Shown: positions 46,569 through 54,669 of the stretch, piece by piece
Layout of the letters: every line of letters begins with the position of its first letter
Position numbering within the stretch: the first letter of the stretch is position 1
NCBI RefSeq assembly: GCF_003315205.1
Contig: NZ_QNRR01000006.1
Span: 310,001 to 374,000, forward strand
Direction: 5' to 3'
DNA length: 64,000 bases
From: Roseimicrobium gellanilyticum
GTDB lineage: Bacteria > Verrucomicrobiota > Verrucomicrobiia > Verrucomicrobiales > Verrucomicrobiaceae
Made by a program: the position numbers and the translations under genes
Notes under the pieces: model-generated
The model's input: only the letters and a program-made list of their open reading frames with translations
What the model was told of the DNA's origin: nothing
Databases searched by the model: none

Positions 46569-47336
46569 ATGCTGTGGATGCGCCAAGCGAATTTCACGAT
46601 CTTGCTTCTCGCGTGTCTGGTGGCGTCTCACGCTCACAGTCAGGCACCCACAGCGCTGCCCAACCGCGCCGCGGATCGTCCACAAGCCATCCTGGAACCT
46701 GGCTGGCTGCGCCGCGTCGGCACGCAACAAGGCACCCTGACCAACCAGCCCTGCCGGGTCTGTTTCATTGGCGATTCCCTGACGGAACTCTGGGAGCACA
46801 CGGGAAAGGCCGACTGGGATCTGCATTTCGCTCCACTCAAGGCTGCCAACCTCGGTCTCACCGCTGACCGCACGGAACACATCCTGGAGCGCATCCGCCG
46901 TCTCGAGTTCCGCCGGGCGAAGCCGGACCTGGTGGTGCTGATGATGGGCACGAACAACCTGGGCATGGACCCTCCGGACAAACCCGAGGAGGTGTTCCGT
47001 GGCATCCAGAAAGGGGTGGCAATGATTCAAACCAAGATGCCGCAGGCGAAGACCCTGCTCCTCACGATCCCTCCCAGCGGGACGGAACCCAAGAGCGCTC
47101 TGCGCCAGCGCATCCAGGAAACAAACAAGCTCCTGACCGGGGCCAATTGGCCCGATGATGTGCGGGTACTCCCTGTGTATGAGGCGATGGTGGATGAAGC
47201 AGACCGCTGGCGGGCAGATTGCACGCTGGATGGCACCCACTTCAGCGCGAGTGGCTATGCCCGGCTGGCCGCCCTGCTTTCACCAGCGGTGAATGAAATG
47301 CTGGGAGCGACGGCTGCCGCGGCACCTGCACGATAG
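46569..47336 (+). CDS. Secreted SGNH (GDSL) hydrolase, PAF-acetylhydrolase-like
   Basis: A 255-residue exported esterase. The N-terminal hydrophobic segment (FTILLLACLVASHAHSQA) is a signal peptide. Block I is CFIGDSLTE with nucleophile Ser70, block II is the Gly in NLGLTADRTEH, block III is MGTNNLG, and block V is LDGTHFSASGY with Asp and His. Verrucomicrobial relatives are annotated as acetylhydrolases or acyl-esterases on glycans. An in-frame ATG 9 bp further is an alternative start. The next gene begins after 43 bp on the same strand. Confidence 0.85.
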   Translation: MLWMRQANFTILLLACLVASHAHSQAPTALPNRAADRPQAILEPGWLRRVGTQQGTLTNQPCRVCFIGDSLTELWEHTGKADWDLHFAPLKAANLGLTADRTEHILERIRRLEFRRAKPDLVVLMMGTNNLGMDPPDKPEEVFRGIQKGVAMIQTKMPQAKTLLLTIPPSGTEPKSALRQRIQETNKLLTGANWPDDVRVLPVYEAMVDEADRWRADCTLDGTHFSASGYARLAALLSPAVNEMLGATAAAAPAR

Positions 47337-47379
47337 GATTGCGTTCGTCCGGCATTTGAGGTTCCGTATACGCCCGACG

Positions 47380-49830
47380 ATGCTCCGCGCCCTCTGCCTC
47401 ACCACCCTGAGCCTTCCCTGCCTGCTCCATGCCGCCCCGCCCAAACCGGCGGTGGATGCCTTCTTTGGCCAGAACTGCACGGAATGTCATGACGCCGATG
47501 TGAAGAAAGGTGGGCTCGATCTCACCGCGATTTCCTGGAATCCCGAAGCGCGGGAGAACTTCGACCTGTGGGTGAAGATTTTCGACAAGGTGCGCAAAGA
47601 TGAAATGCCTCCGAAGAAGAGCGAGCGCCCTGAGGCGAAGGCGCTGACCGAGTTTCTCGCTTCCGTATCAAAGCCTCTGCGTGACCTGAGCGCTCAACAA
47701 CAGACCACGAACGGCCGCACGGTGCTGCGCCGCCTCAATCGCAACGAGTACGAGCGCACGGTACAGGACTTGCTGGGCATCGACATTCCGCTGGCAAACC
47801 TGTTGCCGGAAGACACGCCTGCCCATGGCTTCGACACGGTGGCAGAAGGCCTGCGCATTTCGCAACTCCAACTGGAGAAGTACCTCGAAGCTGCCGATGA
47901 AGCCCTGGAAGCGGCAATGTCACCCAAGGAGCGTCCCGAGCTCATCAAAGGACACTACAGCTACAAGGACGAGGGCAGCATCAAGAAGAACCTGGAACTG
48001 CCGGACGAACCGCCCACGGATCCGAAGAAGAAGTACAGCCGCTCGCGCCAGGTGTTCCGTCTGCTGCCAGATGGCGTGGCCATGTTCACGGATGCGGACT
48101 ACATGCTGGGTCTGGGGCAGTTCCGCGTGCGCCGTGGCGGCACGTTCCGCATCAAGGTTTCCGCCCAAGCTTACCAGAGCGCGGGCAAGGACATCAACCT
48201 TCGCCTTTACGCAAACAACTTCCGCACGAAGCGGCTGGTGGCGCAGTTTGACTTCCCTGAGGACAAGCCCCGTATCGCGGAATTCACCGCGCGCATCGAC
48301 AACGGTGAGCACCTGCTCTTCACGCCTTCCAAAGTCGGCTACGATGAAGACGGCAAGCGCCTGAACGACTACGACACCACGAAGGATTTCAAGGGGCGCG
48401 GACTCAATGTGCAGTGGGTGGAAGTGGAAGGCCCACTGGAATCCCAAGTGTGGCCACCTGCCTCGGTGGTGAAGCTTTTCGGTGCGGAGAACGTGAAGAC
48501 GGTCGACAACTCGAAGCAGAAGAAGCCGGAGACCTATGAGGTGAAGCCGGCGGACCCGCAGGCCGAGGTGAAGAAGGTCATCGAGTCCTTCGCCGCGCGT
48601 GCCTATCGCCGCCCGCTGGAAGCAGGCGAGGTGGATGACTTCGTGAAGATGGCCCAGGAGTCCCTCACCAAGGGTGAAAGCTTCTCCTACGCCGCCCAGC
48701 TTGGGATTCGTGGGGTGCTGACCTCCACACCGTTCATCCTTTTCAGCGAAGCGCCTGGCAAACTGGACGACTACGCACTGGCTGCGCGGCTCTCCTACTT
48801 CCTGTGGAGCACGATGCCCGATGACGAGCTGCTCAAGCTCGCCGCCGCAAAGCAACTCTCCCAGCCTGCCACCCTGCGCGCCCAGGTGGAGCGCATGCTG
48901 AAAGACAAACGTTCCAATGACTTCGTGACGAACTTCACCGGCCAATGGCTCGATCTGCGCAGCATCGACGCCACTTCGCCAGACGCGAATCTGTATCCCG
49001 AGTTCGACGAAATGCTGAAGCGCGCCATGGTCACCGAGACGGAGTCCTTCTTCCGCGAAGTGCTGGTCAAAAACCTCCCAGTGACGAGTTTCATCCAGTC
49101 GGACTTCGCCATGCTGAACTCGCGCATCGCCGAGCACTATGGCATCGATGGCGTGCGTGGTGAGCAATTCCAGCGCGTGAGCCTTCCCGCGGACAGCGTT
49201 CGCGGCGGGGTGCTCACCCAGGCAAGCATCCTGAAAATCACCGCGAACGGCACCGTGACCTCCCCCGTGCTACGCGGCGCATGGGTCATGAAGCGTCTCC
49301 TCGGCGATCCTCCCGCACCACCTCCGCCCGGCGTAGGCAGCGTGGAACCGGACACGCGTGGCGCGACCACCATCCGTGAGCTGCTGGACAAACACCGCCA
49401 CGCGGAGTCCTGCATGGGGTGCCACAACAAGATCGACCCGGCGGGCTTTGCCCTGGAGTCCTTTGATGTCATCGGCGGCGTGCGTGATCGCTACCGCAGC
49501 AAGGACAAAGGCGAGCGTCCCGCCACGAAGATCGAGAACCGCGGCGTGTGGCAGTACAAGCTGGCCCTCCCTGTGGACACCACCGGGCAACTTCCCGACG
49601 GACGCGCCTTTACCGGCATCCGCGACTTCAAGAAACTCATCCTGGACAAGCCAGCAGACCTCCAACGCTGCATTGCCGAGAAACTCCTCACCTACGCCAC
49701 CGGTGCGGGCATCACCTTCGCGGATCGATCTGCCGTTGCAGACATCGTGCAGAAAACGAATCAACAGGGCGGCGGTCTGCGCACCCTCGTGACAGAAGTG
49801 GTGCTGAGTAGCACGTTTCAGAACAAGTAG
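47380..49830 (+). CDS. Planctomycete-type cytochrome c protein with DUF1587/1592/1588/1585
   Basis: An 816-residue exported protein. Signal peptide 1-18, then a PSCyt-type haem motif Cys33-xx-Cys36-His37 (NCTECHDADVKKGG) with MPPKKSE as Met region. DUF1587 follows (VLRRLNRNEYERTVQDLLGI), then a beta-rich insert (about 240-370), DUF1592 (SFAARAYRRPLEAGEVDDFV, ARLSYFLWSTMPDDELLKLA), DUF1588 with a second motif Cys678-xx-Cys681-His682 (SCMGCHNKIDPAGFALESFD), and DUF1585 at the end. The protein is the usual partner of DUF1552, which follows 39 bp downstream. Function unestablished; presumed periplasmic redox protein. Confidence 0.93.
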   Translation: MLRALCLTTLSLPCLLHAAPPKPAVDAFFGQNCTECHDADVKKGGLDLTAISWNPEARENFDLWVKIFDKVRKDEMPPKKSERPEAKALTEFLASVSKPLRDLSAQQQTTNGRTVLRRLNRNEYERTVQDLLGIDIPLANLLPEDTPAHGFDTVAEGLRISQLQLEKYLEAADEALEAAMSPKERPELIKGHYSYKDEGSIKKNLELPDEPPTDPKKKYSRSRQVFRLLPDGVAMFTDADYMLGLGQFRVRRGGTFRIKVSAQAYQSAGKDINLRLYANNFRTKRLVAQFDFPEDKPRIAEFTARIDNGEHLLFTPSKVGYDEDGKRLNDYDTTKDFKGRGLNVQWVEVEGPLESQVWPPASVVKLFGAENVKTVDNSKQKKPETYEVKPADPQAEVKKVIESFAARAYRRPLEAGEVDDFVKMAQESLTKGESFSYAAQLGIRGVLTSTPFILFSEAPGKLDDYALAARLSYFLWSTMPDDELLKLAAAKQLSQPATLRAQVERMLKDKRSNDFVTNFTGQWLDLRSIDATSPDANLYPEFDEMLKRAMVTETESFFREVLVKNLPVTSFIQSDFAMLNSRIAEHYGIDGVRGEQFQRVSLPADSVRGGVLTQASILKITANGTVTSPVLRGAWVMKRLLGDPPAPPPPGVGSVEPDTRGATTIRELLDKHRHAESCMGCHNKIDPAGFALESFDVIGGVRDRYRSKDKGERPATKIENRGVWQYKLALPVDTTGQLPDGRAFTGIRDFKKLILDKPADLQRCIAEKLLTYATGAGITFADRSAVADIVQKTNQQGGGLRTLVTEVVLSSTFQNK

Positions 49831-49869: not shown

Positions 49870-51147
49870 ATGACCGCGCCTACCCAGCTCTCCCGCCGCG
49901 CTTTCCTTCGCGGTTCCGGCATCTCGCTCGCGTTGCCTTTTCTGGATGCCATGTGGTCGCGGTCCATGCTCGCTGCGGACGCGCCTCCGCCGAAGCGCCT
50001 GGTCACGGTGTGTTCCGCATTGGGTGTCTACGGTCCGGATTTCTTCCCCACGGCTGCTGGTCGCGACTATGCGCTGACCCCGTATCTCGACATCCTGAAG
50101 GAGCACCGGGATGACTTCACGGTCTTCTCCGGTCTCTCCCACCCGGAGCAGAGCGGACGCGACGGTCACGCCTCCGAGATGACCTGGCTCACGAGCGCGC
50201 GCCACCCCGGCCTCGGTGGCTTCCGCAACACCATCTCCATCGACCAGTACGTCGCGGAGAAGATTGGCTTCGAGACGCGCTTCCCCTCGCTCGTGCTGAA
50301 CACGGGCGGCAACAACAGCCAGAGCTACACCCGCAGCGGCGTGATGATTCCAGCGGAAGCACGCCCTTCCAAAGTCTTTGCCTCCCTCTTCCTCGATGGC
50401 TCACCCAATGAGGTGCACAACCAGATGCGCAAGCTCAAGGAAGGCCGTAGCATCATGGACGCCGTGCGTGAGCAGGCGAAGCGCTTCGAAAAACGCGTGG
50501 GCAACGCCGATCGTGAGAAGCTGGACGAGTACTACACCTCCGTGCGCGAGATGGAGCAGCGCCTTGTGAAAGCGGGCGACTGGGTGCACAAGCCCAAACC
50601 CAAGGTGGACGTGCAGCCCCTGAAAGACATCGAGAACGAGAAGGATCTCATTGGCCGCATCAACCTGATGTTCCAACTCGTTCCTCTGGCGCTGCAGACG
50701 GACAGCACCCGCCTCATCACGATCCTGATTCAAGGCCGCGGTGATGTGCCGGAGATTCCCGGAGTGAGCATGGACCACCATAACCTCTCCCACCACGGTC
50801 AGGACCCGCAGAAGATCGAGCAGCTCCGCCTCGTGGAGCGTGCGGAAATGGGCGCGCTCAATGGCCTCTTCACTGCGCTCAAGGCAAAGAAGGAAGGCTC
50901 GTCCTCACTGATGGACAACACCATGGTCCTCTTCGGAAGCAACCTGGGCAACGCCAACTCCCACGACTGGCACAACCTGCCCACCCTGCTCGCCGGCGGC
51001 GGATTCAAGCATGGCCAGCACATCGCCATGGACACGAAGAACAACACCCCGCTGTGCAACCTCTTCGTCCCGATGCTGCAAAAGCTGGGCATGGAGACCG
51101 ACACCTTCGGCACCAGCAGTGCCTCCAGCCTGGCTGGTTTTGCCTGA
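49870..51147 (+). CDS. DUF1552 protein, Tat-exported
   Basis: A 425-residue partner of the preceding cytochrome protein. Twin-arginine signal at Arg9-Arg10 (LSRRAFLRGSGISLALPFLD). DUF1552 motifs include FTVFSGLSHPEQSGRDGHAS, TISIDQYVAEKIGFETRFPS, LDEYYTSVREMEQRL and LVLFG-like MVLFGSNLGNANSHDWHNLP. The family is distantly similar to DUF1501. Both cytochrome clusters in the window therefore have the same plan: haem protein by Sec plus a Tat partner. Confidence 0.92.
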   Translation: MTAPTQLSRRAFLRGSGISLALPFLDAMWSRSMLAADAPPPKRLVTVCSALGVYGPDFFPTAAGRDYALTPYLDILKEHRDDFTVFSGLSHPEQSGRDGHASEMTWLTSARHPGLGGFRNTISIDQYVAEKIGFETRFPSLVLNTGGNNSQSYTRSGVMIPAEARPSKVFASLFLDGSPNEVHNQMRKLKEGRSIMDAVREQAKRFEKRVGNADREKLDEYYTSVREMEQRLVKAGDWVHKPKPKVDVQPLKDIENEKDLIGRINLMFQLVPLALQTDSTRLITILIQGRGDVPEIPGVSMDHHNLSHHGQDPQKIEQLRLVERAEMGALNGLFTALKAKKEGSSSLMDNTMVLFGSNLGNANSHDWHNLPTLLAGGGFKHGQHIAMDTKNNTPLCNLFVPMLQKLGMETDTFGTSSASSLAGFA

Positions 51148-51262
51148 TAAAACTTGCTGGCAAAGCAGGATCAAATCTGAGCACAGCGGCCGTCAATCCC
51201 GGGCGTTTCCGCCATCGCGTTGCCCGACGTAGGGGCAACCGCGATTTGACTTCCCTCGTATC

Positions 51263-51280
51263 CTTGTGAAAAATCACAAG
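51263..51280. promoter_or_regulatory. Palindromic Rex-type operator ending on the rex start codon
   Basis: CTTGTGAAAAATCACAAG is a perfect palindrome of 7-bp arms around AAAA. TTGTGA/TCACAA are the half-sites of the Rex operator, but the spacer is 4 bp where the common Rex box has 6. Its last G is the first base of the GTG start of rex, so a bound protein would cover the place of the ribosome site. Autoregulation is the simplest reading. Confidence 0.65.
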
Positions 51281-51900
51281 TGCCCAAGCCCGAAATCCCT
51301 CGCAAAACCGTCTACCGATTTTCCATCTATCAGCGCTGCCTTAACCGCTTGAAGGACAATCACATCGAGACCGTCTCCTCTGAGGCGCTGGCGAAGGCTG
51401 CCGGTGTGAAATCCACCCAGCTCCGCAAGGATCTCACGCATTTGGGACAATTCGGCACCCGCGGCTTGGGGTACAATGTGGGCGGTTTGAGCGCAGCCAT
51501 CGGCGAAGTTCTGGGCCGCTCCCGACTGCAGCCGGTCATCCTCGTGGGGGTGGGAAACCTTGGCGCCGCTCTCTTGCGCTACGGCGGCTTCCAAAAGGAG
51601 GGCTTCGAAATCGTGGCCGCCTTCGATTCCAAACCGGATCCCCGTCGTGTGAAAGGGCTCAAAACCCAGCTTCTCGACGCCTCCGGCCTGACGAGTTTCA
51701 TCCGCGAGCATCAAATCAAGATGGCCATCCTCACCGTGCCCGGCACACACGCGCAGGAAGTCGTCAACGCCATGGTCGAAGCCGGCATCCAAGCCGTGCT
51801 GAACTTCTCCCCCGTGGTGCTCGAAGTGCCGCGGAACGTGGTGGTGAACAATGTGGACCTCGCGGTGGAGCTGGAGAACCTTAGTTATTTCATCCGGTGA
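51280..51900 (+). CDS. rex: Redox-sensing transcriptional repressor Rex
   Basis: Rex senses the NADH/NAD ratio and represses fermentation and respiration genes when NADH is low. Length (206) is normal. The winged helix occupies about 6-80 (IPRKTVYRFSIYQRCLNRLK, TQLRKDLTHLGQFGTRGLGY), then the Rossmann domain has VILVGVGNLG with Gly90-x-Gly92-xx-Gly95 and AAFDSKP for NADH. The C-terminal swapped helix is NNVDLAVELENLSYFI. The start is a GTG at 51280, right at the IPRKT block where the family begins. No Shine-Dalgarno is visible because a palindrome fills that space. Confidence 0.95.
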   Translation: MPKPEIPRKTVYRFSIYQRCLNRLKDNHIETVSSEALAKAAGVKSTQLRKDLTHLGQFGTRGLGYNVGGLSAAIGEVLGRSRLQPVILVGVGNLGAALLRYGGFQKEGFEIVAAFDSKPDPRRVKGLKTQLLDASGLTSFIREHQIKMAILTVPGTHAQEVVNAMVEAGIQAVLNFSPVVLEVPRNVVVNNVDLAVELENLSYFIR

Positions 51901-52626: not shown

Positions 52627-54669
52627 CTAGACCCTCGACAAAACCTCACGCGCTGCCCTGAGCGCTCCCAGTGACCACACCACAGGGTATATCATCTCAT
52701 GATACCAAAGCCGGGCGAAGTACAACCCGATCGGTGCTGAAGGAAACTCCGCGCCGTTGCGTGTCTTCTTCAGCAGCCACGTCACGCCGCGCTCAACTGC
52801 ACCCAGCGCGTTTGCCCTTACTTCATGTTCCCACGTGGCTCCCATGCGTTGCAGAGTCAGGCTCAGCACGTGCACGACCACTGATGTCTCCTCCACGCTG
52901 GGCACCACACCTTTGTCTCCACCCCATCCACCGTCATCGCCCTGCTGTTCCACCAGCCAGCGCAGATGCATCTGCAATGAAATCGATGGCACCCCCCACA
53001 CACTCCCACCCTCAAGCGTGAGATCCGCATGCAGCAGCCCCATCAGCACCAAAGCGGTGCCAAAGACGGGATTATTCTCCACAGGCGTGTGCTCATTGCC
53101 GAACCACAGCGGCTGCCACCAGTGTAGCGACCCCAGTCGGAGCCGCTGCTTGGTTTTGAGCATGACTTGATCACCATAGGGTGAGACATATCCCGTGCCG
53201 CTTTTCCAGACACGCCACCGCATCTTGGACAGATAGGCCAGCGCGCGCGTCTTCGCCCCCCGCATCCTCTCCCGCAGCGCTTCATTCACATACGGCTCCC
53301 AGGCCGCCCAGCCACGCAGCGCATGCGCCATGATTTCCGGTGTGCTGCGATCAAACGGCAGCGTGCCCCAGCCACGGCAGAAGGTGGGCATGCCTCCATC
53401 ACGATTCTGTAGATCCAGCAACCACGTGATACCGGCTTCCGCAGCGGGCAATGCTTCACGCCGTTCCTCGTCCGTCTCGCACAGATACGCCAGCGCCACG
53501 ACCGCGCCGCTGGTGTCATCCGCATCCGGCACACCTCCGGGCAGGTCCGTCCAAGCCCAACCGCCAGGGGCAGCATTTGTAAACGGATGCACCTCGCGAT
53601 ACTGCTGCTTCAGCAGCCACTCCCGCACCGGCCGCAGCTCCTTCCTCAGCGTAGCTCGTTCCGTTTCTTGTTCAGCTTCACCCTCCGAATCTCCACCCAG
53701 CAACGCCTTCGTCGCCAGCGTCGTGCCCCAAGTGGCGAGATTCGTATCAATCGGCCAGCTCCCATCCTCGCGCTCCGACTTCAAAAGAAACTCCACCGCC
53801 GCAGGCACACAGGGATGATCCTTGTCCCCCGAACTCGCAAGGGCCATCGTCACGAAGCTCGTGAGCGGCGTCGCTTCCAAATACCCACCCGAACTCGGCT
53901 GAAGCGTCTTCAGCATCGGGTAGATGCGCCCCCACAACGCGCCGCGGATGAGCCGCAACGGATTCCACTTCCCCGGCGGCGCATGCACAAAGCGCGCATG
54001 CCCAATCGCAATCAGTGCCGGTAGCGCATAACTCACCACCGGCAGGCCCACCGCGCCAAACCACGAACGAGGCAAGGCTGCCAGCTCAAACGGCAATGGC
54101 AGCACCTTGCTCCATGCCTCATGATCTTCGCCCAGCGTCCCGCAAATCGCGCATAGCATCAGGATGGGCACCGAGAAGGTCTTATCCTTCCCATACCTCG
54201 CCACCACCGCCTCTGTGATGTCCTCCGGATCCAGTGAACCCACTTGCGAGGCGATCCAGTGGTTCGCGCGATCGATGGCCACGCCCTCGTTCGCAATATC
54301 GCTCTGACCATCGAACATCCTCAGCGCGCTCCAGCACAGCAGCGTGGTGGAGAGATTGCTCTTGCTGAGGGTCGTGTCTCCCCAGCCGCCGTCTTCATTC
54401 TGGTTCTTCACCAGCCAGGCCGCGCCACGTGCGATGACTAACTCGTGCTTGGCAGCATCCACCTGACGAAGCGCCACAATCGCCGTGGCCGTGGAAAGCG
54501 CACTGCTGGAGAGATACCCCTCCCAATGTCCCTGCGCATTGCGCAACGAGAGCAAATACGAGCGGGTGCTGGCGATGGCAGCATCCAATTCAAATAGGGA
54601 AACCTTCGATGACGATGTGGGGGCAGCAGACAACGCGGAAGTAGTAGGGAAGAAACAGCCCCGCGCCAC
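52627..54669 (-). CDS. Squalene-hopene-cyclase-like terpene cyclase
   Basis: A 680-residue triterpene-cyclase-type protein. The catalytic DxDDT motif is Asp382-Ala-Asp384-Asp385-Thr386 (GVPDADDTSGAVV). QW-type repeats are present: AQGHWEGYL, QNEDGGWGDTTL, QNRDGGMPTFCRGWG and QGDDGGWGGDKG. The N-terminal block reads LSSSALSTATAIVAL where bacterial squalene-hopene cyclases have NVTMEAEY, so the Glu that aligns with E45 of the Alicyclobacillus enzyme seems to be Thr. The substrate may be squalene or a different polyprene. It starts at a GTG directly after an in-frame stop. No other hopanoid gene is nearby. Confidence 0.8.
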   Translation of the reverse strand: MARGCFFPTTSALSAAPTSSSKVSLFELDAAIASTRSYLLSLRNAQGHWEGYLSSSALSTATAIVALRQVDAAKHELVIARGAAWLVKNQNEDGGWGDTTLSKSNLSTTLLCWSALRMFDGQSDIANEGVAIDRANHWIASQVGSLDPEDITEAVVARYGKDKTFSVPILMLCAICGTLGEDHEAWSKVLPLPFELAALPRSWFGAVGLPVVSYALPALIAIGHARFVHAPPGKWNPLRLIRGALWGRIYPMLKTLQPSSGGYLEATPLTSFVTMALASSGDKDHPCVPAAVEFLLKSEREDGSWPIDTNLATWGTTLATKALLGGDSEGEAEQETERATLRKELRPVREWLLKQQYREVHPFTNAAPGGWAWTDLPGGVPDADDTSGAVVALAYLCETDEERREALPAAEAGITWLLDLQNRDGGMPTFCRGWGTLPFDRSTPEIMAHALRGWAAWEPYVNEALRERMRGAKTRALAYLSKMRWRVWKSGTGYVSPYGDQVMLKTKQRLRLGSLHWWQPLWFGNEHTPVENNPVFGTALVLMGLLHADLTLEGGSVWGVPSISLQMHLRWLVEQQGDDGGWGGDKGVVPSVEETSVVVHVLSLTLQRMGATWEHEVRANALGAVERGVTWLLKKTRNGAEFPSAPIGLYFARLWYHEMIYPVVWSLGALRAAREVLSRV

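Follow-up and report, generated by a model that had tools for sequence, protein, structure and literature searches.

Why should the gene of a redox repressor begin on the last base of a palindrome that carries the half-sites of that same repressor, at a spacing 2 bp shorter than the usual box? To our knowledge, the spacer length of Rex operators is considered fixed. The palindrome in question lies in a 64,000-nucleotide stretch of DNA (the window, contig positions 310001-374000) from a genome of 7.93 Mb, where the following features surround it:

51246..51251, + strand: -35 hexamer TTGACT of the predicted rex promoter (promoter scan; conserved position)
51263..51280, no strand: 18-bp perfect inverted repeat CTTGTGA-AAAA-TCACAAG, putative Rex operator with a 4-bp spacer (pattern search of window and genome, conservation)
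51266..51277, no strand: conserved core of the putative operator, GTGA-N4-TCAC (same-family rex loci)
51269..51274, + strand: predicted -10 hexamer AAAAAT, within the operator (promoter scan; AAWTTT at this place in most relatives)
51280..51282, + strand: rex GTG start codon and predicted transcription start (6 nt past the -10; relatives' starts)
51280..51900, + strand: rex, redox-sensing transcriptional repressor, 206 aa (NCBIfam, Pfam and PDB Rex matches)

A short-spaced palindrome at the rex start codon

The palindrome is made of a left arm, CTTGTGA (51263-51269), a spacer, AAAA (51270-51273), and a right arm, TCACAAG (51274-51280), whose final base is also the first base of the rex GTG codon (51280-51282). 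The original prediction was exact on this point, as it was in recognizing Rex half-sites, since TTGTGA and its inverted copy are perfect in the window. With up to two mismatches allowed, TTGTGA-N4-TCACAA occurs once in the window, and that occurrence is perfect (shuffled sequences give about two matches at up to two mismatches); it is also the sole perfect site of this form in the whole genome.

The identity of the downstream gene is firm. Its product scores above the curated cutoffs of NF003995 (233 bits against a cutoff of 126), NF003992 and others, and combines the winged-helix N-terminal domain and the NAD(H)-binding domain of a Rex protein (Pfam PF06971 and PF02629). The gene is present as a single copy in the genome, and the closest named relatives by Rex are Verrucomicrobium sp. 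BvORR034 and BvORR106, at 87% identity.

Conservation of the site at rex

Regions upstream of rex were compared at 62 same-family loci and at another 52 distinct loci, most of them from the same order, with family and order placed by kinship codes. Loci within a genus are not independent, and for this reason we report, beside the counts, the contrast with flanking columns and the distribution of the site on a Rex tree.

GTGA-N4-TCAC stands directly before rex in 57 of the 62 same-family loci, and none of the 62 shows N5, N6 or N7 spacing at the rex site. Within the family, all eight half-site positions carry 2.0 bits of information, against about 0-0.5 bit in the flanks outside the promoter elements; apart from operator and promoter elements, the upstream DNA of these loci has drifted. 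On the Rex tree, the label for the N4 site changes only 7 times, compared with 33 changes expected when the labels are shuffled.

Because the pattern used for collection fixed part of the left half, the count was repeated with the right half alone as the anchor. Among the 58 family loci with TCAC, the left half is GTGA in 57; at the further loci, the corresponding positions are G (23/28), G (22/28) and A (22/28), and any of C, T, A and G may stand at the middle base. A relaxed pattern, G.GA-N4-TC.C, is found at 57/62 family loci and 18/52 further rex loci, against 0/62 and 1/52 in a control stretch further upstream. Conservation at the same-family loci and absence from their control stretch rule out a chance origin of the palindrome, and the conservation on which the original prediction had staked itself is thus clearly borne out. 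The alternative register, in which the same right half pairs at N6 spacing with CCTTGT, is not conserved.

Outside the family, the base between the two G's of the rex site varies: it is replaced by C or A (giving TTGCGA or TTGAGA), while the G, G and A around it are mostly kept; within the family, there is no conservation of the left half's outer TT. The site is not shared by phylum-level rex genes (32-41% Rex identity), and about 60 nt ahead of a distant rex of the same phylum lies an ordinary N6 box, TTGTGAAATGATTCACAA. Within the family, five members that form one clade have lost the palindrome and kept both TTGACA and the N6 boxes of the genome. The Rex of this clade sits on a long branch (0.42), which suggests that Rex changed when autoregulation was lost.

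Two classes of site in the same genomes

Elsewhere in the genome, nine perfect TTGTGA-N6-TCACAA boxes are found (control, 0), which agrees with the claim that the spacer at rex is 2 bp below the usual. These boxes adjoin genes for NuoB, NuoD, NuoF, NuoG, NuoH, ATP synthase a (atpB), an H+-pyrophosphatase (H+-PPase), a polyprenyl synthase and a c7-type cytochrome. Each of the 67 family genomes searched contains 4-12 N6 boxes, and the boxes fetched from four relatives lie mostly at the same genes. Judged by position and conservation, the N6 boxes are a typical, conserved respiratory Rex regulon, and since its half-sites are the same, a Rex of this specificity is presumably at work. The literature searched, which did not cover the main comparative study (Ravcheev et al. 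2012), yielded no account of a verrucomicrobial Rex regulon, so this respiratory regulon may be new as well.

The N4 core, by contrast, is nearly confined to rex: of the 30 exact GTGAAWTTTCACANG sites in the 67 genomes, 26 belong to rex, and the remaining 4 have neither promoter nor Rex-target context. In more distant families, the rex site is often TTGCGA-N4-TCACAA, whereas the N6 boxes elsewhere in those genomes are mostly TTGTGA, and this divergence of the left half suggests that the two classes evolve separately.

The N6 boxes have promoter geometries of their own. At nuoD, nuoF, nuoG and nuoH, here and in relatives, a constant 7 bp separates the box from a weak -35 downstream of it (TTGCCG or TTGCCC in most cases), and GATAAT or GATAGT follows 16-17 bp further on in most relatives; at nuoB and the H+-PPase gene, the distance from box to -35 is 5-6 bp. 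The nuo box is centred at about -51, ahead of the core promoter and unlike the site at rex; from there, Rex might act by repression or by activation. At the polyprenyl synthase gene in three genera, TTGACT precedes the first base of the N6 box by exactly 26 bp, another fixed operator-promoter geometry. The nuo genes with Rex boxes lie on separate contigs or far apart, each with its own box, and do not form one nuo operon.

Promoter geometry and the start of the mRNA

The promoter scan gives TTGACT-17-AAAAAT (51246-51274) as the sole match in the region, with 0.1 expected, and AAAAAT is a weak match to a -10 hexamer. In 49 of the 57 family loci that bear the N4 site, TTGAC is found exactly 20 bp upstream of GTGA. 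The start codon has an identical position in 40 of the 57 (35 GTG, 5 ATG); because so many relatives share it, five of them with ATG, the comparison supports GTG 51280 as the true start of rex. Upstream of this codon, no in-frame ATG, GTG or TTG occurs before the stop at 51247. Among the rest of the 57, one start lies 1 nt beyond this position and 16 lie 12-14 nt past the operator core.

Transcription would begin 6-8 nt past the -10, which falls on 51280-51282, so a leaderless rex mRNA is expected, and we hold this to be quite probable. The -10 lies about 6-7 nt before the start codon without a Shine-Dalgarno sequence, as befits a leaderless gene, and Shine-Dalgarno-like motifs occur in only 2 of the 57 N4-bearing family loci. 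Known leaderless genes likewise have a -10 about 6 nt before the start and no Shine-Dalgarno sequence (PMC3160421; PMC12340547); unlike theirs, the -10 of rex sits inside a repressor palindrome. In Akkermansia, which belongs to the same phylum, leaderless starts make up 10% of mapped TSSs (PMC4782308).

The original prediction held that the operator fills the expected position of the ribosome site, which is supported, and that the mRNA may be leaderless, which the scarcity of Shine-Dalgarno-like motifs and the placement of the -10 now make probable. Its proposal that repression and translation start share one site stands only in part: the overlap is usual (40/57), but the 16 later starts indicate that it is not essential. 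From these alignments, the operator is fixed relative to the promoter, where it covers the -10 and lies 17 bp past the -35, and not relative to the start codon. Its likely action is therefore to block the promoter, and the overlap with the start codon is likely a by-product of leaderlessness.

One could argue that only the leaderless core promoter is conserved and that the palindrome is incidental. In Chthoniobacter relatives, the right half and the -10 (TTTTCACAA beside ATG) persist without the left half, and the five family members that lack the palindrome keep TTGACA, both of which fit this account. However, GTGA on the left is no promoter element, and 57 loci keep it without variation at precisely 4 bp from TCAC, so that we consider an incidental palindrome very improbable.

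As RNA, the window sequence can also fold at the start codon into a hairpin with a stem of 7 bp and a loop of 4 nt (-8.4 kcal/mol, z -1.96), which might control translation. The relatives give no covariation in its favour: the outer pairs are barely more complementary than shuffled letters (0.28 vs 0.19 and 0.21 vs 0.23), and where the left half is TTGCGA, its C disrupts a pair with no compensating change. Furthermore, if the mRNA starts at GTG, the left arm would be untranscribed. We reject the hairpin, whose likelihood we put at very low.

Is the short-spaced site read by Rex?

The ROP of S. aureus, S. agalactiae and T. maritima, TTGTGAAN4TTCACAA, corresponds to TTGTGA-N6-TCACAA and has the same half-sites as the palindrome at rex. 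The two are also alike in the contacted G, G and A, which nearly all palindrome-bearing relatives keep, in an AT-rich centre and in location at a rex promoter. They differ in the spacer, which is 4 bp and not 6 bp in the window and in every palindrome-bearing relative and places the rex site outside the strict ROP definition; in the left outer TT, which is often lost; and in the overlap of the rex site with the -10 and start codon of a predicted leaderless gene. The N4 site is best taken as an ROP variant that most likely functions as a Rex operator.

Structural work on T. maritima Rex argues for this assignment. In that protein, the DNA-contact residues are Arg48, Lys49, Arg60 and Gly61; Arg48 reads G5 and Lys49 reads G7/A8, and the base between is without reported contact (PMC8836258). 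The window Rex matches all four with Arg49, Lys50, Arg61 and Gly62, in a gap-free part of the alignment. By this comparison, the half-site letters fixed at rex are those that Rex contacts, and the variable letter is the base without reported contact. Rex sites at the gene's own promoter have precedents: S. agalactiae Rex bound its own promoter in EMSA (PMC8376106), and C. thermocellum has a Rex_2471 site at its own gene (PMC8457756). In this respect they resemble the present locus; the N4 form, unlike here, is not reported in the parts of those two papers that were consulted. Taken together, we think there is a good chance that Rex binds the N4 form at rex.

The spacer invites a different view, in which a different regulator controls rex through this palindrome, and the likeness to a Rex box comes only from TTGTGA-like half-sites used by both. 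CRP/FNR sites have the established spacing TGTGA-N6-TCACA, which the geometry at rex does not match, and a CRP/FNR site is rejected for this reason. The spacer is, to be sure, unlike that of confirmed Rex boxes in the literature read, and the left half at rex is TTGCGA in other families where the N6 boxes keep TTGTGA. Moreover, changes of spacer length strongly impaired complex formation by S. aureus Rex (PMC2883068), so the canonical Rex geometry may not fit N4. Against another regulator stand the invariant letters, which are the Rex-contacted bases, and the near confinement of the site to rex, as further targets would be expected of a separate factor. On balance, such a regulator seems unlikely.

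A last reading keeps Rex and reverses its sign, with NAD+-Rex on the 18-bp N6 boxes and closed, NADH-bound Rex on the 16-bp N4 operator, so that rex would be regulated with a redox sign opposite to nuo. By standard B-DNA values, a 2-bp deletion would move the half-sites about 6.7 Å closer and also rotate them by about 68° about the DNA axis, the first of which suits this reading and the second of which does not. In T. maritima Rex, NADH draws the recognition helices about 6 Å closer together, from 35.7 to 29.5 Å apart (PMC6125430), or from 36.3 to 30.8 Å in a second report (PMC8836258), with a tilt of about 30° per domain (PMC8836258; PMC6125430), and the N4 spacing is strictly kept at rex only. 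Nevertheless, the NADH form is described as too close for DNA binding (PMC8836258), and NADH releases Rex in the cases read (PMC8836258; PMC8376106), which leaves redox inversion highly doubtful.

A probable compact autoregulatory operator

The explanation that best joins these observations is that the palindrome is a compact, autoregulatory Rex operator over the -10 of a leaderless promoter, to which, from comparative sequence evidence, we assign a probability of roughly 0.6. It would work as follows:

(i) The N4 palindrome would cover the -10 of a sigma-70-type promoter, TTGACT-17-AAAAAT, with transcription starting at or within 1-2 nt of the GTG codon, so that operator, -10 and start codon would be packed into about 20 bp.

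(ii) Rex in its DNA-binding state (NAD+ or apo) would occupy the site, cover the -10 and the start point, and block RNA polymerase at its own gene. When NADH rises, Rex would leave the N4 site.

(iii) With half-sites 2 bp nearer to each other and the outer TT gone from many relatives, the N4 site is probably weaker than its 18-bp counterparts at genes such as nuo and atpB. If it is weaker, negative autoregulation would set in only at high Rex levels, when the protein is plentiful.

Selection maintains the N4 form at a single gene, across dozens of genomes with normal boxes as well, and this is a genuine puzzle given the impairment of S. aureus Rex by spacer changes. Genomes with both N4 and N6 sites offer a natural system for studying how one dimeric redox repressor copes with two operator geometries, and whether Rex adjusts its own supply through a site that is weak or inverted in redox sign. 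Should the NADH-bound form prove to be the reader of N4, spacer length would encode which redox state of one repressor reads a site.

Genes around rex

On the - strand at 52627-54669, a gene encodes a squalene/hopene-cyclase-like protein that scores under the curated cutoffs of the cyclase families. Upstream of rex lie two large neighbouring genes, at 49870-51147 and 47293-49830; the product of 425 aa has no NCBIfam match. We take the two to resemble the DUF1552 and DUF1592 genes that are common in Verrucomicrobia and Planctomycetes.
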